This document shows, in pieces, positions 1-12,800 of a DNA stretch of 64,000 nt. Numbering within the stretch: the first letter of the stretch is position 1; the number at the start of each line of letters is the position of its first letter. Below the pieces are notes generated by a model. The model was not told the origin of the DNA. It saw nothing but the letters and a program-made list of their open reading frames with translations, and made no database searches. The position numbers and the translations under genes were made by a program. Source of the stretch: Neelides folsomi (Eukaryota > Arthropoda > Collembola > Neelipleona > Neelidae); assembly GCA_034687125.1 (NCBI GenBank), contig JAQGBZ010000021.1, positions 365,802 to 429,801 of the forward strand, given 5' to 3'.

Positions 1-724
1 AAGGTGAAAGTTCTGTGTGTGTTTGTGTCGGGACAAGGCGACGAGACACCGAGCAGGAGAATGAAGGGTTTCAATGCGGGTTGGTTAACTGAGTCGTTTA
101 AATATTAAGTATGTACACTGCGTGTTTTAAAATGAGGGCTAAATGAGGTTCAAGAAATTTTTGACTTTTTTCAAGTACCTAAAACAGGCAATGCATCGGA
201 AACTTGTGGGAGCGTTTCCGCCACGAGATTGTGAAATACTGTCAGTGATAGTAAAATGGTCACCCCTATGGACACGAGAGCAATTTAAATATTAAGGCAA
301 ATTACACCCATTTTTCATATCAATTATTCAATTAAACATAGTAAGATTATTAGTTTTTAAATATTGTAAGGAAAGTACCCGCGGCCGGCCCGACTCAAAG
401 TGATACGAATAAGAATTTAATTATAAGCTAAGATAATTAACTATATTAAGACTGTATTTCATAATTAACATTTAATGAATAGAATTCCATCATGAATTAT
501 TCGCAGCATTTAGTTAGTTATGACATTCCGTCTAAATTACTTTCTCTTTACATCCTCCCCAAGTTTCTGTCAAAAGTGAGACCGATGAAGATATTTGTAA
601 TAATTAGTTAAAGTTATTAGGAACAATTCAAGTTAAATTTTCTTCATTCTTGTTCATCCATTGTCGGATCTAGTGGTAGAAGCAGTGCAGGAGGAGAAGC
701 AAATAGAAATAAGGGAGAGTTTAC
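1..724 (-). other. intron 9 of nAChR gene (partial)
   Basis: The intron begins at the GTAAAC donor at 724 and runs past the left edge. The sequence is AT-rich. I looked for the TM3 exon on the minus strand and did not see it, and I see no other gene. Confidence 0.85.
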
Positions 725-811
725 CTAGTAAAGGCACTGCGTCTGAGGTTGCTGGCATTGTTTCCGCCACCATGTTTAAGAACACTGTTAAACTAAGTAA
801 TATTGTCACAC
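725..811 (-). CDS. nAChRalpha6: nAChR exon 9: rest of TM2 and TM2-TM3 linker
   Basis: This exon is too short for a simple ORF search but clear from homology. The acceptor is TTTTTTTCTCCGACAG, followed by 87 nt encoding [20 protein letters not shown] then TSDAVPLL, with donor CTAG|GTAAAC. It carries pore residues from 5' on, including the 9' Leu gate, 13' Val and 20' Glu ring, and the [11 protein letters not shown] linker that is near-identical across insect alpha6/alpha7. It completes the Gly codon left by either exon 8 copy. The next exon (TM3) is not within 1-724, so it lies outside the window. Confidence 0.96.
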
Positions 812-3800
812 CTGTCGGAGAAAAAAACGGTTAGGCCCGAGAAAATCCAATTTCATTCATTCAAAACTCCACAATTTTTTTCAAAATAAAAATCGAATGT
901 CATTGAAAAAAACGTGCTCAAAAATGATAAAGTAATTTGATGTGTTTCAACGTGTAAGATCACTTTCGGAATTTTGGATAGTAAAAATAAGTAATACAAG
1001 TAAAACAAGTGACAATTGAATGAATCATGTGATAAAAATCAAATAATGTCATCAGTGAGTGTACACGTGTAAACAGCATAAATTCCATCTTGAACAGATA
1101 TTTGAAAATTCATCTATATGTAAAAAAAACATCGTTTGAAAATATCCGAAAACCAATTGTGTAAAAAAGGTTCAAAATGTCCGAACTTTCAAAAATAAAA
1201 AATTTAAATGAATTGTAAAACCGGAGCAAAATAAATTAAGTGCTGATTGTAAAATGTCGTAATTGTTGGGAATGAGTGTCTTTTGATATCATTAGGGTGG
1301 AGAGTATGAGGATCGAAGAGTGTCGAAAGTCGTCAAGTCGTCAGCCGTTTGTGCTTTTAGCGCAAGAGAAGAAGTTGCCGGGAGAGGAAAGAGAAAGTCG
1401 TCGTGACGTAGCAACGTTGCAGTTAAATCGATCCGGATCTCGAGACCCAGTTCCCGCATTCTCAATGGGACCCTCCCCGTCGAGGATTCAACCATGGACT
1501 CCTTCCCAACACTCCCATTCATCACATTCCCTCTCGAAGCTAATCAATCCAGCTACCGACTCATCAAACCACCCCCACCGAAACACAATTATCCTATCAC
1601 CCACCTTCACCTCTTTCCAAACACCTTTTAATTCCCATCATTCCCATCAAAGGCACTCAATTCCTTTCCTACTTCATTCTCCACGAACCTATCAAAAATT
1701 CCTACCCGTTCTATTAATTGCTTTAAATTATTAATTTTAACATACCTAGTACATAATTAACTATTCAAATTTATAAGATATAAGGCATTATTTGATATTT
1801 AGCTTTCAAGATAAAATATTTAGATACTTATATGAGTAGTATTTTTATTGGTATTTAAAATATTCTTGTACAGACGTTTTTATCTCCTACAGATATCTGA
1901 TATGTTTATACAGTATAAATATCATTCTATGGGATGAAGCCGAATAAAAAGCAATAGAGAACTGGGGATAAAACACAAGTCCTCATTGGGCTCATCGAAG
2001 TGGGAAAAGTCAACAACCGAAATGTGTGGGGTGTATTCATTAAGGGGCTGTGGGCAGACCGCGGGAGAGGGAAAAATGAATTTTCGTTCCCTACCAAGCG
2101 TCAGTTTTTCCCCACACTCGTGTGGCAAGGTGAATCCGAGCAGAGTCATAGAAGATACCATGATCCCCGGGATGATGAGGTTTACCATGTAGAAGAGCGT
2201 CCGTCTCCGAATAGTTACATAGAAAGTGATGTCGACGTAGGGCTCAGGGCAGCAGGCGTAATACTTCACATTGCGCTTTCCTGGCATCTCTAATCACACC
2301 TCGTCACAATCCTCATCAACTCGCGGAATCAGTGATGGAAATGAGGGGGTTTCTTACTCGAACTTTCCCAGCTTGACGTAAATAAATAGTTACCAACAGA
2401 CTCTCCTCTAATCCTCAACTTCCCAATAATGAATGGCTCATTCTGCTTCAATTCACAGTCGAATTAACAGTCGTCAAAAATTAAAAAAAGGTAAAAAGCG
2501 ACGAAAATGTGGTAAAAAGAGTTGTAAAAAGATTGTTTACCTAAAGATAATTTTTCTCCTGAATCGGGAGGCAGTGTAAACCCAAGCACGGCCATAGAGG
2601 CGATTAAGACGCAAGGAACGATTAAATTGAAGAAATAGTATAGCGTACGCCTTTGAATGTTAATCACAAATGTTATATCCACATAAGGCTCTGGACAGCA
2701 ACCGTAATAGTTTACATTTCTTTGCCCTGGAACCCCTACAAAAAATGTCAAAAATGATACAAAAGTATTTGAAGACAAATTAGCCCCTTAAACCTAATGG
2801 AAAAACAATTTGGAAGTTTGTGAACAAAGAGGCTTAAATCATTTCCTTAATCGCCCTCCAAAGGGGAAAGTGACTTTCAAAATGCTAAATGTCAAAGTTC
2901 CAATTGATATAAAAGGGTAAAGGATTTGAAAGAGGAGATCAAATGAATTTGAGAAGGATCCCCAATGAAAGAAATTTCCCGGGAGGAGAAAATATATTTT
3001 CTCAAAACTTTCTTCAGGCTCATTAGAGTAATTAAAAGGCCCTCGTTTTTCTCCCTAATTCACTTAATGGACTCCAAAGTTTGCATAATAATATAAAATG
3101 AGTGATATTTAGCCCCCGTTGATTGCCCCCATTCATTTCTTGAGTAAGAAACCCATCACTGATTGGGAGAACTGGAGGGAACAGACCTTTGAGTTGCCAC
3201 TCCCCGTTGGTGATGAAGCTGCTGATGTCACCGCCATCCTCTGACTGCAGCTGGAGATCCAACTAAACAAAACAAAAAACAATACTTTTAATTAATCCTT
3301 CCTTCCATTAAACAAACTTTACAATTAATAAATTCATAGCCATAAAGCAAAAATATCACAGTTCCGATAATTTCGACCAATCAGCCAATACAGTTTCAAT
3401 ACGTTTTTATTTCACTAGGGATTGATCCAACGTATTAACTACTTATTAACGCGTTATCACAAGACAAGAATCTAACTAACTTTAAAATAAATAACATTTT
3501 AATCATTAAAAATATTATTTAATAAATACATATTCGGATTTATATATTTTTGTGAATATATTTCATAAATATAAAATATATCATAAATACATATGTTGCA
3601 AAATCAATATTGTAGAGGTATAAAAAGTAATTTCATATAAATAAAAAGTATGTAATTGTCATTCAAAATAATTTGGTATATATGGTATATATACATAACA
3701 TTAATTAAATGTAATAAATTAAGTAGATAAACACCTTATTAAATTGAATTTTAATTTTAATAAAATTATTTAAATGAATAAATTAATTTGGTAGTAAGAG

Positions 3801-6800
3801 GTGAAAGCGTTTTTGTATACCTGGTATCCGTCGTAGGTCCAGCTTCCAAACTTCATCTCGCACTTTTGCTCGTCGAAGGGGAACCAAGTGATGTCGATTT
3901 TGCACGTGCTCTTGAAGATGCCTGGAGGGATATAAGAGCAGCTCCCATTGTTCTTCACAACAACGTTCGTTTGGTACGTCCCGTCGAACCCTTCGTCCGC
4001 ACTGCACAAACATCCCTCAATCACTCTCCGAACACCTTGGTTCCTCTCTTGAACTTCTCAAGAGAGGATCTGTGATGTTGAGGTGGATGAGTTAATGACA
4101 CCTCACCTGTTGTACATGAGGACGTCTGGTTTCCATATTCTGTGTGGGGGGATTCGAAGGTTCGTGACGTTCCCGTGTTCACTCGGAATCCACCTCAAGT
4201 TGTAGTCGTTCCATTCCTGGATCATTTTCCAAAACCTCAGCCCCGTCTGGCGGACTCCGAAGGACGGTGGGAGGGCACGGTTCTTCCCCGACCCGGCGGC
4301 CCGCTCCCTCTCCCGAATTTCTCCACTGCTTTCACCGCTTTCTCTCCTTTCTCGGGGCGCCGCGGGAGTTCGGGGCGGTCCGCTCGGGTCGGCGAAGGGG
4401 AGAAAGCAAAACCAAGAGGAAGCGGAAGAAGCACAGAGGGGAAATAGCGGTTAAGAAGCGAATAAGAAGCGAGAGAAGACGAGTTGAGTACGAATCGTAA
4501 TATTTTAAGGTTTAAAGGACGTTTAAGAAGTAATTGTCTTTTCATCCTTCTTTAAAACCCACTAAACCCTCATGATGAGAATACGGAAGTATTTTTGGGA
4601 AAGTTCTACGCCATGGGTGCTTGAGTCCTGCCATGTGAATATCAAAAGATCACATTCGGCCTCCTCCACCATTTTTCACTTTCTCACCCATTGAGATGGA
4701 GTTGGGGGGAGTCTACACGTGAGAAGAAGTTCATTAATAGGCGGAGATGAAAACTTAACCTTACGTGTATACAACCAGTAAATATCCAAAATAGAAGCAC
4801 GAGTGAGCAAAAGTCAAAATCCCTGCAAGATGCATCGAGCATTTAATTAAAACCCATTCCAAACCACAACTGACCGATCAACAATTACATTCAACTCAGG
4901 CTCTATATAGGAAAAGACCAAGTTAGATTCAATTTACACACATATAAATCACAATGTTACACAAATACAAAAAGTTGATGAACATGCAAGACATGCAAAT
5001 ATGCAAATGCAAAGAATTAAATATTTAAGGCAGGACGAGAGAGAAGTTAAATTGATACCATTATTACAACCATGCCCGCTTGCACTTTCCCACAAACAAC
5101 ATTCGTCGATGTGGAGATGCCGAAGAACGAGTCGAATTAAGGAAAACTAAGAAGCCCAAGACATGACAGTAAAATTATCCTATTGAGGTGGTGGGCCGTC
5201 GTTGATGAGTCACCCATTGGAGGTCTTTTAGCATGGGTTTAATAGGTATTGGATCTGTCGTCTCAGAGGCGGGGGTGGGAGGGACGGGGAAGGAGTGAAT
5301 TATGTAAATTTCCGCCGGAGGAAATATAAAAAACTTCCTCTGTACGGAGGAATTCATGAGGATAATCATATGAATATATTTGAAAACTTTCCAAATCACC
5401 CCGTCCCGTAAACTCCCTTTTATTTGAATGGGCGGGGAGGGCCGTCTCCGCTGTAAATTACCCTCAAAGACCCTTCAAGACGGTCGAAGGACTATTGTAA
5501 GTATATTTCCCCCGAAAACACTTTCTCCCGGCCTTCTCCCAAGCTATTCAATTTACCCTCCCTTCAGAAAGACTGCCAAGAGTGGGACCCATAATGAAAC
5601 ACCAACCATGGTCGGGGAAAATCATCTCACAAGTGGAAGGATTTTAAATTGAGAATAAGAGAAATTCATTTTCACTCCCACATGGATAATTCATGTGAGT
5701 TCCACCTTGGAACCCGGGCATTGGTTGATGGGATTAAACCCAGTGGAGTGAATTGACAATGAGCGGAAATTGAAGGGTTCAAATCTGCTCAATCACTCCG
5801 GAGGAAATATCAAATTCAGTGAAGGGTCAGGCTCAGGTTGCATAACTTGACAAGTGATTTCAAAAGCGTGTCAGGGAGGGGATTTGTATATTTTGAATAT
5901 AATGAAAGCGGGGAGGTTTGAAGTCTCGTCGACGGTCAAAGCGATTTCTTTTGTATATAAATATGTGGAAAGCGAGGGAGATTCTGTGTTGATTACACTT
6001 TGAGTGTCTAAATGGTTCTCATGCTCTTTTCCTCTTTTTAGAGCCTTTTTCCTCTCATTTGCCTTCTGTGAGGGATTCCGGACTTTAATTGTTTGTGGTG
6101 ATTCGTCATGTGTGGTGTGGAAATCAATGAGCCGCTTCCAAAAATATTTATGAAGCAAGATAGTGTGTAGTATATAAAAGGGGCTTCGTATCTCGTAGTA
6201 CGTGTGTGCTACTTCTACGGCAAAAAGTGAATTATATAAAAAAAATTGCAAATTAAGAGTGGAACTTGGTGTGTCTCGAGAGGGCGGCGGGCGGGATGGA
6301 GATTTGCAAGGTCACTCACCATTTTCAACCAAATTGTGGTGATTAGGAGCTGATTCTTCTCGTCCTTTACATTTTGATTTAGGGCCAAGGAGAGTCCATG
6401 CAAAAAAAGGTCAGAGAAATTGTTGGTCAAGAGAACGAACGCAACCCTTGCGGAAGGCGGGAGAAAGGGAAAACTCCCGTCAACATCAACAATCCGAGGT
6501 TCCCAAAAGCGGGTGGACCCGCAGTCTCCTCCGAACCTCAAAACATGGGCGCCTTGGAGTGTATTTCTTTCGCTATATTTATTGATAAGGGACAAGCACC
6601 GACGAAAGGGAATGCACTCACAGCTTCTAGTCGGTCACACACAGAGAGAGAGAAAAGCCACAAACAGTGACGAACGAACAGGCGGCTAATTATCATATCT
6701 TTATGTATCCTACTTATCCATATTGAGTATATGTCCACATGAACCTGATTCGCATTTGGTGAAGAACCGAGCTGTCTGTGTTGGGGGAATGTGGGTCCCT

Positions 6801-9800
6801 ACTTCCGCTTGTCAACTCAAGAGAGGCCGGGGAAAAGAGGACGCTAGAAAGAAAGAAGGAGGAGGTCGAGAGAACATTGAGAGGGATGAGGACCGCACTG
6901 CCAAAGTACACGTTTCGCTGGGGCAAGGCCAGGGACTCACACGAGAAAAAATGAGAGACACGTCACATTTGCTGCTGTTGCACTATTTGTAACGAAGGGA
7001 GAGGGGGGCAGCTTTTGTATAAAAAGAGGCGAGAGGGGAGGGCCCCTCGGACACATAAACGCGTTCTTCACTTACCAAATTTAGCCACGTATTGGTTATA
7101 AGAATTTGATTCTTTTCATCCTACAATCAAAGGTAAACGATGAGAATCCCGCCCTGCTTCCAACGGACTTGGGAGGATCTCGTGGGCGGAAGGGAAACCG
7201 GCCGGAGTTGGACGAGTTTTTATTTCCTTTAAGCCGGATTTACGGCCCAACAACTAATTCAATCCGCGAGTGTGGGGAGCAGGAGGAGATGGATGACGAT
7301 CCAAACCCAACAACTTCCAAAACCCCACAAATCCTCATTTCCCACCCAAATCTCAACACACGCGCTCCCTTTGTCTACTACACCCATCCAATTGATCCCG
7401 TAATTGTGCATAATTAATCCCTCCTTATTTACCAATTTTACTCCCTAATACATTCACGAGCTCCAATGGATAAATTTGGCAAACTTGAGCTTCCTTCACA
7501 ATAAATACAGTTAAAGGCTCAATGAGGCCTTTTGTAAAGGCTTTAATTCCTCAAAACAATTCCAAACTTGGCGTTACCTTCAGTCCTTTCAAAAATTTGT
7601 TTGCTTTCGCAACTGTAGCTCCTGAGCACGGGAAAGTCAAATACAACTTTCCCTTTTAATCAACTCATTAAGAAGGAGGTTTAATGTTTAAAGGAAATTC
7701 CTCCCAACTTTCCCAACTCGGCCAAATCCAAAGGACTTCCATCAAACCCCCTGTCAAAATCCCCCAATTGTTGTCAAAAACCCCGTTTGATGATAAGTTA
7801 ACTTTCTAATATCAATATTAATAAAGTTTGATGTTCAGACTTTTCCTTTCCCCGCTCCGGGGCGGGATTTGGAAAGTCCTTTTGAATTTGTACTCGAATG
7901 GGCTATTTGCATTGGGAGGTTAAAAATGACGCTGGGAGGAAATAAATGATAATTATATGAATGAGTGAGGGAGATTATTGAAGAGCTGTGGGATGTTGGG
8001 AATTGGCGGTTCGAGCTCGGTGTAATTCCCATATTAGAGATGGATTGAGGGTGAACGATCTCGTTAAATGGAAATTTCCGCAAGGAGGGGAAGGCGATCG
8101 ATTCTAATTAAAATGAAAGGTGTTCCTAGGGGCCCTTTTAAATATGGATATCACACAATGCCTTATTAACATAAAGAACCTTCTCGACGATTCATACTCA
8201 ATCATATTGAATATTCCCATCTTTCATTGAATTATAATGCTTTGAGCCGTCTTGATGTCCCATAAATTTTATATGATTCTTCTTATATATTTTATATTCC
8301 AATTTTCCGAGTTTTTTTATGTACCTAACATATGAACGCATCTTTCAGTTGAATACGGCGCCTTTTCAAAATACTACTTTATCCACAGATAAACCAAAGC
8401 GGGCTAAAATGGGTGATATGTGTATTTATGATGTCTGATCCTATAACTTATTGATATTAGAGGAAATAAGTAAGAGTAGATCTGTGTTGTCTCCGCATCG
8501 CTCTGTTCGATCAATTTGCAGCGGATTGGTTTGATTAACAAAAAACTCCTGGTTCTATAGGCGGATGGATACGCAGAGAAATAGAAAGCCTTGCGGTTCC
8601 GCAAAGGGGTTATTTGACCCCGACTATACTCCCGAATCGGGTATTTATGAGGGAGTCTGGGTTTGAAAATCCGCGGTTAGGGAAAATGATGAAAGGGCCT
8701 AATAGTACATTTCTTTTTCGTGGGAGTGTGGGGCATTGTTTACGGGCCGGGTATGTGGAGTGAGGGGGCGGCGGAGGTCGCGTTGAGAGAACCGACGCAT
8801 TGCGACAGACATACGGGATCCTTACATCTGTCCGGTATAGTGGGCTTAGAAAGGGAAAGTGCGCTGATATCGGAGAGCTCGGGTTTCATTCAACTACCCT
8901 CATTACTACACTCTCTCAACTCTTATAATTCACGCCTCGGAGACCCGCGACTTTTGAGGGTCTCCGAGCTGAGAGAACTCATTTAATAAATTCACTCCTC
9001 CTTCAATTACACGAGAGAGCTTAACCTCTAAATGTTATTAAAACTTTGGAGTCCTGTGGTGTAATTGAAAGTTGAAAACAACCAACGACATCTTCGTAAT
9101 TAATGGGAATAAGATGGGGATGTCAGAAAAGGAAATTAACTTTTAAAGATTTCTCCTGCCCCGCCACTGTCACAGAGGGAGAAAAATGCCGAGGCATGAA
9201 TGGATAAAAATGGAGACAGATGGTAAGAGAATGGTAAGAAATGTGTAGAGAATGAAAATATTTTGTAGGGTTGAAGTGAAAGGGCCGATGTGGGGTATAA
9301 TGGGGATTAAGGGCAATAAATAAGGAGGAATTTGGCCCTCGAATCCTTTTTCTCCGAATGTGAAATGGGGCGGAGTATCTGGGAGAGAGATACTACCCGG
9401 GTTTGAATCTGCCCTTATCTGCTGGCCAAAGGCGGGTAATGAATGACCCGACTTAATTTAGACGTGACGTGAAGGAATCGGCTCCCTTCGCCCGACATCC
9501 CTCCAACCATATTTCCAGTGTCATAAGGAGACACGCGGGATCAGGACCAAATCCGGAAATCACAATAACCTTTTAAAATCCTTTCTTGCCCATCAAGGGT
9601 CCAACCCCATAAAGATGTCCGGACGGCGGGAATTATTGAAAAATTGAATGAATTTGGGGCTGATTTTGGAATTTACGATAATTTGCCCCAGGACCGTTCG
9701 GATCTTTGGATCTTCTTTGGATGAGGAATGGACGTGCGTGCAGAGGTTCTCATTTCAATGAATTATTGATTCCAGCTAAAGAGTGGGAACGTCGGTGAGT

Positions 9801-12800
9801 TTTGAGTCAACAGGGGGATTTGTATTATCATAAGTGTGATTTATGGTTGGAGGGATTTGAGGAGATGGTGCGGTCCAAACACATGTTCTTCCATGTCCAT
9901 CACTCGATTAGTCTCGATGGCCCTCCATTACCTACTTTCACGTCATTGAGAACCTTTTGGCCACAAAGGAGAGGAAGCCCAAGGAAAGCTCACCTTCTTC
10001 CACCCGCACATTCAAGTGAGATGGATGAGCCTTCCCGATTCCCACCATCTTTCCCCCATTTGCGACGATTTATAAATGAATCCTTCCTTGAATTATGATC
10101 TCTCCCACAATCTTGGCCATTTTTGAATTCACCGCCGCCACTTGTGAAAACTGATTTCCTTTTCCTCCTCCACACACGAGGTTATGAGGAAGGGTTGAGG
10201 TAGAACGAGGAGGGAAACCCATTTGTTTCATCGGAGAATCCGCTCAATGAGAGACGCTTTCTTTTTACGACCCAACAATGTATATGCTTATTTATCATCC
10301 TTATCAATCTGGGAGAGGGGAATGGGCGAAGAGTCGTAAAAACCTCCGAGATTCTCGTCCAACTCCGTGCAATTTCCCCTTTTCCCCACTCGTTCAACTG
10401 CAAAGGATTCCTTCACATGACTTCCCTCGTTCCTCCTGTCTTTTTGCCCTATCTCTCGCCACCCATCTCTCCACCATATGATCCTCATCAACAACTTTCG
10501 CTACATTTCTTAATTCCTCCTTTAACTTATTCCTCGCTTCCTCCAAACTCAATTCATCACCGGTTGAGGACAAAGATTTTACTAATGGACCTCAGCTCAA
10601 TCTATTGGAAGTAACAGATGCCCGTTTCCTAAATTCCATTTGGCGTTATTTAGTAGCTCACTTTTGGTAGTATCATTATTTAGTAAATTGGACAAGTTTT
10701 TGATTTATTATTCATTTCACTGAATTTCATTGAATTTCATTTGTGTTAGAAATTAGATTTGATCGCGAAAAGGGTCATTTTAGTAATTAGTTGATTATTT
10801 GGTTAGGGAGTTGTTATCCAATTAATTGTTATCCAATTAGTAAGTTATTGATCCTTGTTAATTCATTAAAAAGTGAACAATGATTTGTGTGACTTGTTCA
10901 TCCGTTCTGTCAATTGGTTAATTTGAGGTTTGGGACAGGAGGGCAGAATTCCCTTACCACATCGATGATCTGCATGAGTGTGAGTCCGAAGGAGAGCTGA
11001 AGCGGCTCCGACTCATTGGCCACCGGACGCTCCAATGTATTGTAATTGTCGAGCAACTCCTTCAGCAGCTCTTTCTCACTTCTCCCTTGCAATGACCCTG
11101 GAAAATAGAAAAAGATTTGAATCAAATCCACAGACATAAAAATGTATTAACTTGGCGTTTACATAATAGATATTTATATTTAGAAGGAATTGGAAAAGCC
11201 CTTCGCTCCTTCTCAAAGAAATCATACACATATTTTCCATATGCACTTCTCTTTGTCCCAATAATTCCTCCCAAGTTTTTCCTTCCAGACCCCATTAACT
11301 TTAATTCAATCCCTGGGAAGCCATTAAAGAAAAGTTATATAAGGGAAAGTTATAATGGGCCTCTGAACCGTTTTCATCTCAGATTGAGAAATACATAATA
11401 TAAATGCTTATATGCTCTCATTTATACATAAATTCATATGAAATTTTAAACATACTAAGGAAGAAGAAAGAAACAATATGGGAGTATATGAAAACCCCAA
11501 GCCGTAATTTACCCAAATATTACACATGTAAGAATGGGGAGTGCTCATCGTAATGAATACTCGCAGAGAGACTTTTAATTTATTAAAACCGGAATGAAAT
11601 TAATTGCGAAGGAAAAGGGTATCCGAAGTGAATTGGAGATTCAGCCTTGGCGAGTTTTACAAAGGGAAAAAACACATTCCATTTCCATTCCAAGTTTTAA
11701 GAGATTCGATACACAGAGGATTGAATCTCAATTCCTCTAGGATTTCCTCACAAACTTTTATCTCCTCAATTCCTCCTAACTTTCCAACGCCCAGGTGAGA
11801 AATTCCTCTTCCCCCCAAATGCTCGTTTAACAAACTTCCAACTTCCACAAATTCCAGAATATATGCGAATCAAACTCGGAGAAGTTACATGGAATTTAAA
11901 TATTTGCATATTGTTCAATGAAATTTGAAGAAATAAAACCCTATTTCATCTTTGGTGGAATCAATGGAAAAAGAGTTAATCTCACGAAAGAGGTTTTGTT
12001 TAGAGAATAAAAGGAAGTGGAAGAATATATTTGGACAGGTGACGAGGAGGGAGATTTAAACCCTCCAACTTTCCACCAACGAACACGAACAGTTTTCCGG
12101 GGAAAGGTAGAGAAAAATATGAGTCCCTCGAGATAGAAAACAGACAATTAATTCACCACTTTCAATATTCAATTTATGGGAGGTAAATTAATTGGGAGTC
12201 ACTTAAAGTCTCTGGTTGCTCTGATATGTTTTTAGTTGTTTCAAGAGTTGTTTTTGCAAAAAGGTTTGCAAAAAGGTTTAGAAAACTGTTGAGTGGAGAG
12301 TTGAAAAATCCAGGTTGAGTTTTTTGGTTAAAGAATCGATCCAACCACGGTCCATTATCCTCAACGGCCTCAGAGAATGAAAAAAGAGAGACACGTGGAG
12401 TTTGGAATATGAAAACAAGGGACATGGTGGGTCGGAGAGGAATCCCAGGTCCAAAATCGAAAATTGGAATTCACTTCCCCTCCGTCCGGGACACCGACCC
12501 CGAAAGAAGGAATAAAATTCACTTACACCACAGAGAAACATCTTTTACCAAATACGCCCATATACCCGGTTTTGAATAAGAATCATTTTTATTCTAATGC
12601 ACTATATTTATATATACTCCCTCACAATAAATTCCGAGCTCGAAACATCATATTGTTCTGTATAAGGATTGTCCGGGGACCTTTTATGTTCGTATTTTCT
12701 TTAATGCAATGGTCCTACTGCGGATCTCAGCTATAATAAAAAAACACGCTTAACATTCCCTCCTGATTCATGTTCAAATATCGAGGGCTACCTTATATAA

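Follow-up and report, generated by a model that had tools for sequence, protein, structure and literature searches.

Three tandem exon pairs in an alpha7/alpha6-type nicotinic receptor gene

Gene structure and subunit class

The window analysed here, a 64-kb stretch of DNA, ends at the contig end. On its minus strand lies a gene for a nicotinic acetylcholine receptor subunit. The exons, and the intronic segments considered as candidate pairing sites, are located as follows.

10958..11097, minus strand, exon 2, 140 nt
7076..7120, minus strand, exon 3a, 45 nt, phase 0, loop D
6320..6364, minus strand, exon 3b, 45 nt, phase 0, loop D
4107..4216, minus strand, exon 4, 110 nt, single
3821..4001, minus strand, exon 5, 181 nt, Cys-loop, single
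3187..3262, minus strand, exon 6, 76 nt, single
3142..3164, minus strand, arm in intron 6, candidate pairing site, AATCAGTGATGGGTTTCTTACTC, 22 nt inside the intron
2541..2735, minus strand, exon 7a, 195 nt, phase 1, loop C and TM1
2347..2359, minus strand, complementary block 1 in the intron between 7a and 7b, GAGTAAGAAACCC
2327..2338, minus strand, complementary block 2 in the intron between 7a and 7b, CCATCACTGATT, 37 nt ahead of the 7b acceptor
2095..2289, minus strand, exon 7b, 195 nt, phase 1, loop C and TM1
725..811, minus strand, exon 8a, 87 nt, TM2
559..577, minus strand, candidate arm in the intron between 8a and 8b, 19 nt
179..265, minus strand, exon 8b, 87 nt, TM2

Both Pfam domains of nicotinic receptors, the ligand-binding domain PF02931 (5.5e-74) and the membrane domain PF02932 (2.5e-53), were present on the joined 3b/7b/8b form. 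The joined 3a/7a/8a form, the only one compared with the PDB, had alpha-7 as its best match (E 5.8e-158). Of the 41 PDB sequences listed at E <=1e-80, the top 13 were all alpha-7 (5.8e-158 to 2.6e-145), and the next entry after this block was alpha-4 (5e-109). The cysteines of the Cys-loop are separated by 13 residues, the YxCC motif of loop C is present as YYGCC or YYACC in the exon 7 copies, and GEK stands ahead of TM2 in 7a and 7b. Judged from its sequence, the locus is an alpha7/alpha6-type nicotinic receptor gene of the arthropod alpha5/6/7 clade.

The peptide strings of the exons gave no match in a text search of the literature. Neither Rfam nor a tRNA scan gave a match in the window, and none of the 10 ORFs submitted to Pfam, out of 24 of at least 110 aa at 12000-64000, had a match (0/10). 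For the host, an arthropod and possibly an insect, there were 37 Chitin_bind_4 matches at E <=1e-5, two PBP_GOBP matches (27.8 and 27.5 bits, cut-off 22) and three 7tm_6 matches (best 36.3 bits, cut-off 25.8), whereas a 17-base 18S pattern gave none.

Three exons are present as tandem pairs

A preliminary description of this DNA had reported two duplicated exon pairs. The two 45-nt copies of exon 3 (7076-7120 and 6320-6364) were found as described, with the same length and phase and with AG/GT borders. The second pair, two 195-nt copies at 2541-2735 and 2095-2289, is real as well, but its label of exon 8 was rejected. In insects TM2 is encoded by exon 8, and by homology the 195-nt pair, which carries loop C and TM1, corresponds to insect exon 7. 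AG lies directly before and GT directly after each copy of exons 3 and 7. The parallel drawn with exons 3 and 8 of insect alpha6 holds for exon 3, whereas for the 195-nt pair it named the wrong exon and missed the pair that does correspond to exon 8. This third pair, 87 nt each and encoding TM2, lies at 811-725 and 265-179. Both of its copies end in G, and exon 9 opens with the GT of GGT.

The third pair, besides those of exons 3 and 7, makes three clusters and raises the possible forms to 2x2x2 = 8, so that the expectation of exactly four (2 x 2) had to be abandoned. All of the eight combinations (8/8) are open up to one terminal stop, giving 478 aa counted from exon 2. Additional hidden copies were rejected by a tblastn scan of the gene and by a search of 83 kb of the contig. 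In the former (11 peptides, 13.7 kb, 12000 to -1700), no further copy of exon 3, 7 or 8 was found below E 0.01 beyond the six. In the latter, no second copy of exons 4, 5, 6 or 9 was found at E <=0.01, and exon 2 had one additional match, which lies inside a neighbouring receptor gene.

A paralogue with three TM2 exons

The same genome has an alpha6-like paralogue on contig C239 (L034) with the same exon order. Within the 10 kb scanned, it contains three TM2 exons, a single exon 3 and a single exon 7. Exon 8a is closest to the paralogue copy C8x (24/28 residues, versus 23/28 for C8y), and exon 8b is closest to C8y (25/28, versus 19/28 for C8x). The three TM2 exons of the paralogue suggest that the TM2 cluster arose before the two genes separated. 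In an exon 7 tree of six rows, 7a, 7b and the C239 exon grouped together (96/93), with the branching inside this trio not settled. The exon 8 tree, based on 29 residues, gave no resolution.

The copies are diverged but constrained

Between copies, pS was 0.72-1.06 and pN was 0.16-0.23. Identical residues were found at 10/15 positions for 3a/3b, which was matched by 5/2000 neutral simulations, and at 41/64 full codons for 7a/7b and 21/28 positions for 8a/8b, neither of which was reached in any simulation (0/2000 each, with maxima of 30 and 17). Such similarity exceeds chance and marks the copies as homologous. The copies are at or near synonymous saturation, yet their amino acids are kept far beyond the neutral expectation.

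The presence of a second alpha6-like gene on C239 raises the question of an assembly artefact, in which a collapsed or mis-joined gene duplicate would look like tandem exons of one gene. The copies differ at 33-38% of nucleotides and follow each other in order within the same gene, and the exons between and around the clusters (4, 5, 6 and 9) occur only once in 83 kb. These features make such an artefact extremely improbable.

Exon 7b has the weakest splice sites of the 13 exons described, with 7/20 pyrimidines before the AG and 5/9 donor matches. The constitutive exons 4, 5 and 9, however, have only 8/20 pyrimidines ahead of their acceptors. Exon 3b has 9/20 versus 14/20 for 3a. The poor sites of 7b are what would be expected if only the exon 3 and exon 8 clusters were alternatively used and 7b were a constrained relic or a rarely used exon, leaving effectively four forms. 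The single exon 7 of the paralogue points in the same direction, as does insect exon 8c, the least conserved copy there, which is also the least used. Against this, 7b matches 7a at 62% of nucleotides (119/192) and keeps its frame open through all 195 nt, although a stop was gained in 1867/2000 neutral runs of exon 7. The residues shared with 7a exceed the simulated maximum, and 7b keeps YxCC, the TM1 proline and GEK. We consider it unlikely that 7b is such a relic.

Predicted differences between forms in the binding site and the pore

Variation at loop D, loop C, TM1 and the pore had been expected from the two pairs first described, if both choices are regulated. The exon 7 pair does alter TM1, where its changes are concentrated (11/22 residues). 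In loop C, however, YxCC and the tyrosine are unchanged, and the sole pore change of this pair is the 2' residue, S or T. Variation of the pore helix falls mostly in the exon 8 pair.

The exon 7/8 junction lies at 4' within TM2, according to the TM2 numbering that we assume here. Exon 7 supplies positions -1' to 3' (S2' or T2') and exon 8 supplies 5' to 20' (L15'/M17' or H15'/L17'). Because the junction is inside TM2, the pore helix would be assembled from two choices. We tentatively propose, while regarding it as rather doubtful, that the pore helix is combinatorial, built from independently chosen exons 7 and 8 with exon 3 as a third choice, that these choices are set by intronic RNA duplexes, and that the exon 7 duplication adds a newly described source of diversity to the alpha6/alpha7 clade. 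A third cluster would show that one more exon of this clade has become a set of alternatives. The number of possible subunits would also double, and a direct test of whether pore and binding-site choices are independent would become feasible.

Probable choice of one copy and intronic complementarity

In all three clusters the adjacent copies are homologous and equal in length and phase. A U12-like donor carries the motif GTATCC. U12 sites were rejected as the cause of a one-copy choice, as the sites are GT-AG and no GTATCC donor was found in 12 donors. A frameshift was rejected because all copies are multiples of three, and a short intron was rejected because the copies are separated by introns of 711 nt (exon 3), 251 nt (exon 7) and 459 nt (exon 8). 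The criteria for excluding these causes were those given in the available text of PMC6071210.

With copies that are multiples of three, double inclusion keeps the frame in all three clusters, and copies might be joined together in some transcripts to give longer or dominant-negative subunits. Both exon 3 copies are included in Bombyx adults, and a cDNA with a doubled exon 3 is cited from earlier work. Skipping is known besides, as in a Plutella form that is without exon 8b and stays in frame. A doubled exon 7 or 8, on the other hand, would repeat TM1 or TM2 and would be expected to upset the membrane topology, and joint inclusion seems very improbable to us. Three tandem clusters of alternative exons, most likely with one copy of each per mRNA and with a proposed control by RNA pairing, are probably the best explanation of the locus.

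In the proposed control, intron 6 would pair with the intron between 7a and 7b, which would loop out 7a and put the exon 6 donor close to the 7b acceptor. The intron between 8a and 8b would pair with the intron 3' of 8b, looping out 8b. The intron 6 arm AATCAGTGATGGGTTTCTTACTC has one match only in the genome with <=3 mismatches allowed, and the 19-nt arm between 8a and 8b has a one-mismatch complement 3' of exon 8b, beyond the window (-439 to -457).

With one-gap scoring, the complementarity of intron 6 to intron 7a-7b was equalled in 4/8000 shuffles and that of intron 8a-8b to intron 8b-9 in 0/2000. Gapless scoring with G-U pairs gave 2/60 and 1/60, respectively, and lenient gap costs gave 75/5000 and 150/200. 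Ungapped scoring of the intron 6 pair gave 41/8000, and the duplex energy of two short segments gave 2/500. Among 45 intron pairs, introns 2 and 6, which flank no single copy, likewise stood out (0/40; 3/500). No stand-out complementarity was found for the exon 3 intron pairs (10/40 and 8/40 shuffles), for intron 7a-7b with intron 7b-8a (33/40) or for intron 7b-8a with intron 8a-8b (20/40). Set against the 80 nt ahead of 3a, the start of intron 2 gave 8/200 shuffles. No competing partner was found ahead of 7a, since 152/200 shuffles were equally stable when the start of intron 6 (70 nt) was set against the 80 nt before 7a. In the C239 paralogue, no pairing stood out in 10/10 intron pairs (lowest 60/300). 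The complementarity itself is present in the introns, whereas its role in splicing is putative. As a lead to how 7a and 8b might be looped out it is suggestive, but it depends on the scoring.

Comparison with known systems

Insect alpha6, the spinosad target, has been well studied as an example of diversity from tandem exons, and its pattern includes A-to-I editing in exon 5. The present gene and insect alpha6 (Drosophila D-alpha6 and its orthologues) are both alpha7-type and have two 45-nt copies of exon 3. Insect alpha6 has two or three copies of the TM2 exon 8, and two are present here. The exon 8/9 border within a glycine codon, G275 in thrips, is common to both. In contrast, insect alpha6 has a single exon 7, whereas two 195-nt copies are found here, and we do not claim membership in insect alpha6 itself. 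The accessible portions of the insect alpha6 literature describe exon variants for exons 3 and 8 only, and no duplicated exon 7 was found described in them. Copies of exons 3 and 8 are thus already known as the insect alpha6 pattern, and the exon 7 duplication seems to be undescribed.

Another nicotinic receptor gene, Bombyx mori alpha8, also has alternative exons in tandem at its pore region, namely two copies of exon 7. According to the portion of PMC2045683 available, this exon 7 is located at TM2 and TM3, and its duplication is more recent, with copies 86% identical. Dscam, 14-3-3-zeta and srp differ from the present gene, in which no competing partner was found for the same arm and no stand-out pairing was seen for the exon 3 cluster. 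In those genes, as described in the accessible part of PMC6071210, arms in the outer introns that are complementary to the inner intron loop out one copy, as is proposed here.

Structure of the gene and naming of its exons

The nicotinic acetylcholine receptor (nAChR) gene on contig C21 is real and well preserved; it belongs to the alpha6/alpha7 clade and carries three clusters of tandem exons. The assembly has 75.1 Mb in 840 contigs, and the window is the terminal 64 kb of C21 (bases 365802-429801 of 429801). The gene lies on the minus strand, leaves the window at its low end and was followed in 20 kb of contig (19 kb beyond that end) as far as the stop codon. Its exons from exon 2 onward are listed below, with negative coordinates for positions beyond the low end.

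Exons of the nAChR gene (all minus strand)
Exon 2: 11097-10958, 140 nt
Exon 3a: 7120-7076, 45 nt
Exon 3b: 6364-6320, 45 nt
Exon 4: 4216-4107, 110 nt
Exon 5: 4001-3821, 181 nt
Exon 6: 3262-3187, 76 nt
Exon 7a: 2735-2541, 195 nt
Exon 7b: 2289-2095, 195 nt
Exon 8a: 811-725, 87 nt, TM2
Exon 8b: 265-179, 87 nt, TM2
Exon 9: -880 to -989 (outside the window), 110 nt
Exon 10: -1080 to -1245 (outside the window), 166 nt
Exon 11: -1303 to -1631 (outside the window), 329 nt, with the stop codon

AG was present at 13/13 acceptors and GT at 12/12 donors, and the reading frame was open in 8/8 exon combinations, each of which encodes 478 aa when counted from exon 2 up to the stop codon. The joined product contains both nAChR Pfam domains, and its closest solved structure is alpha-7 (E 5.8e-158). 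No second copy of exons 4, 5, 6 or 9 was found in the 83 kb of contig scanned.

The 195-nt pair, called exon 8 in the preliminary description, is exon 7, because in insects the name exon 8 belongs to the exon that follows, which encodes TM2. In Plutella, skipping of exon 8b deletes TM2 and keeps the frame (PMC2792709), and in thrips the glycine 275 codon is divided between exons 8a/8b and 9 (PMC3644170). As in thrips, the glycine codon here is divided, one part lying in the 87-nt exon and the other in the exon that encodes TYFNCIMF. The Bombyx intron 7 primer tabulated in PMC1919356, when translated in this analysis, gave GMPGKKN, with which the loop C exon begins. The preliminary description also overlooked the true exon 8 pair and expected four forms from two pairs. 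Since exon 8 is duplicated too, there are three clusters, and judged from the sequence eight forms (2 x 2 x 2) are possible from the gene.

Constraint on the copies and predicted effect of exon choice

Synonymous differences between copies were saturated or nearly so (pS 1.06 in exon 3, 0.87 in exon 7 and 0.72 in exon 8), and pN was 0.16, 0.21 and 0.23, respectively. In a neutral simulation (2000 runs per exon), copies were changed to the same nucleotide identity as observed. The 10/15 identical residues of exon 3 were attained in 5/2000 runs, while the 41/64 of exon 7 and the 21/28 of exon 8 were attained in 0/2000 (maximum 30 and 17, respectively), and 1867/2000 neutral exon 7 copies acquired a stop codon. 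The copies are old and constrained, a pairwise result that does not by itself establish use of every copy.

Protein changes are given with the usual TM2 numbering and segment limits. Exon 3 choice changes 5/15 loop D residues, with the tryptophan retained. Exon 7 choice changes 24/66 residues: 5/23 in the loop C hairpin, where YxCC and the next tyrosine are retained, 4/9 in the stretch before TM1, 11/22 in TM1, 3/6 in the linker and 1/6 at the start of TM2 (S to T at 2'). Exon 8 choice changes 7/29 residues, among them 15' (L to H) and 17' (M to L), and the copies are the same at 9', 13' and 20'. With the exon 7/8 border at 4', the pore helix would be put together from two choices.

Possible ways of selecting one copy

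Apart from competing RNA structure, PMC6071210 gives frameshift-triggered decay, short spacing and U12 sites as the usual explanations. Frameshift-triggered decay is ruled out as the enforcer of exclusivity, since the length of every copy is divisible by three and the tested joins with a doubled or skipped copy were open in 6/6. Crowding is unlikely, because the introns between copies are 711 nt (3a-3b), 251 nt (7a-7b) and 459 nt (8a-8b). No U12-like donor was found among the 12 donors of the gene. Second-copy acceptors have fewer pyrimidines of 20 than first-copy acceptors (exon 3, 9 versus 14; exon 7, 7 versus 14; exon 8, 13 versus 15), which would fit the first copy as default. However, the constitutive exons 4, 5, 9 and 10 have only 8-9/20, and the donor of 3b is closer to the consensus than that of 3a (8/9 versus 7/9).

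Intron complementarity was scored over 45 intron pairs against shuffles, with scoring picked after an initial look. Intron 6 (3164-3142) can pair with intron 7a-7b (2359-2347 plus 2338-2327) through 23 bases with one bulge, and its one-gap score was matched in 4/8000 shuffles (about 0.02 corrected for 45 pairs). The arm in intron 6 lies 22 nt from the start of that intron and the partner stops 37 nt before the 7b acceptor, so the duplex would loop out 7a. Similarly, intron 8a-8b (577-559) has a 19-nt complementarity, with one mismatch, to a site that follows exon 8b (0/2000 shuffles as high); this pairing would loop out 8b. Genome-wide, the intron 6 arm had no other match at ≤3 mismatches. The 8a-8b arm matched itself, its partner and two further places at 2 mismatches, and a reversed control pattern matched four.

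The following observations make RNA pairing as the basis of copy choice a lead rather than a result. For intron 6 with 7a-7b, ungapped scoring gave 41/8000 shuffles as high and lenient-gap scoring 75/5000; the latter gave 150/200 for 8a-8b with the post-8b site. Introns 2 and 6, which flank no single copy, scored 0/40 and then 3/500, and the 7b-8a and 8b-9 introns 1/40 and then 38/800. Complementarity did not stand out in the exon 3 cluster intron pairs (10/40 and 8/40) or in 10/10 intron pairs of the paralogue, and no competing partner for the intron 6 arm was seen upstream of 7a. The complementarity between introns 2 and 6 (9054-9035 with 3091-3069) covers 20 nt, contains one small gap and scores above most shuffles.

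Paralogue and other receptor loci

The paralogue on contig C239 (region L034, C239:78000-87999) has a single exon 3, a single exon 7 and three TM2 exons, each with AG and GT borders.

TM2 exons of the C239 paralogue (L034 coordinates)
First: 5899-5813
Second: 5582-5496
Third: 4673-4587

Of these, the first is the closest to exon 8a (24/28 residues; second 23, third 20) and the second to exon 8b (25/28; first 19, third 20). Within genes, 8a and 8b have 21 of 28 residues in common, and the C239 copies 21 (first-second), 19 (first-third) and 22 (second-third). On the simplest reading of these likenesses, the TM2 exon was duplicated before the two genes split, with gene conversion as a possible alternative. 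The TM2 exon tree gave no resolved grouping. The exon 7 tree, of 6 rows, placed 7a and 7b in one group with the C239 exon (96/93), with their order not resolved.

Same-strand nAChR exon matches at C21:339228-348197, about 17-27 kb past the low end of the window, suggest that a second nicotinic receptor gene adjoins this one. Matches on both strands over about 57 kb of contig C1 (C1:561958-619283) suggest a cluster of several nAChR genes. Upstream of exon 2, no gene was recognised at window positions 12000-64000, where Pfam gave 0 matches for the 10 ORFs scanned out of 24 with at least 110 aa; this stretch may be intergenic or belong to a very long intron 1. The assembly also has 37 matches (E ≤1e-5) to Chitin_bind_4, a cuticle domain typical of arthropods, and 2 odorant-binding and 3 7tm_6 matches above cut-offs with low scores. 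The cuticle-domain matches point to an arthropod, and the low-scoring matches make an insect possible.

Comparison with known alpha6 genes

According to PMC1919356, insect alpha6 genes have two copies of exon 3 and two or three of exon 8, and mostly one copy enters each transcript among the species studied, with Bombyx among the exceptions. All six exon combinations are transcribed in Tribolium (PMC2064938). Arachnid alpha6 is described as a single clade co-orthologous to D-alpha5-6-7 (PMC9219234), in a text where 'splic' has 0 occurrences. No duplicated exon 7 of such kind was found in the accessible text of the open-access nAChR literature searched. Compared with insect alpha6, the exon 3 and exon 8 clusters here are of the known kind, and the exon 7 cluster is apparently new.
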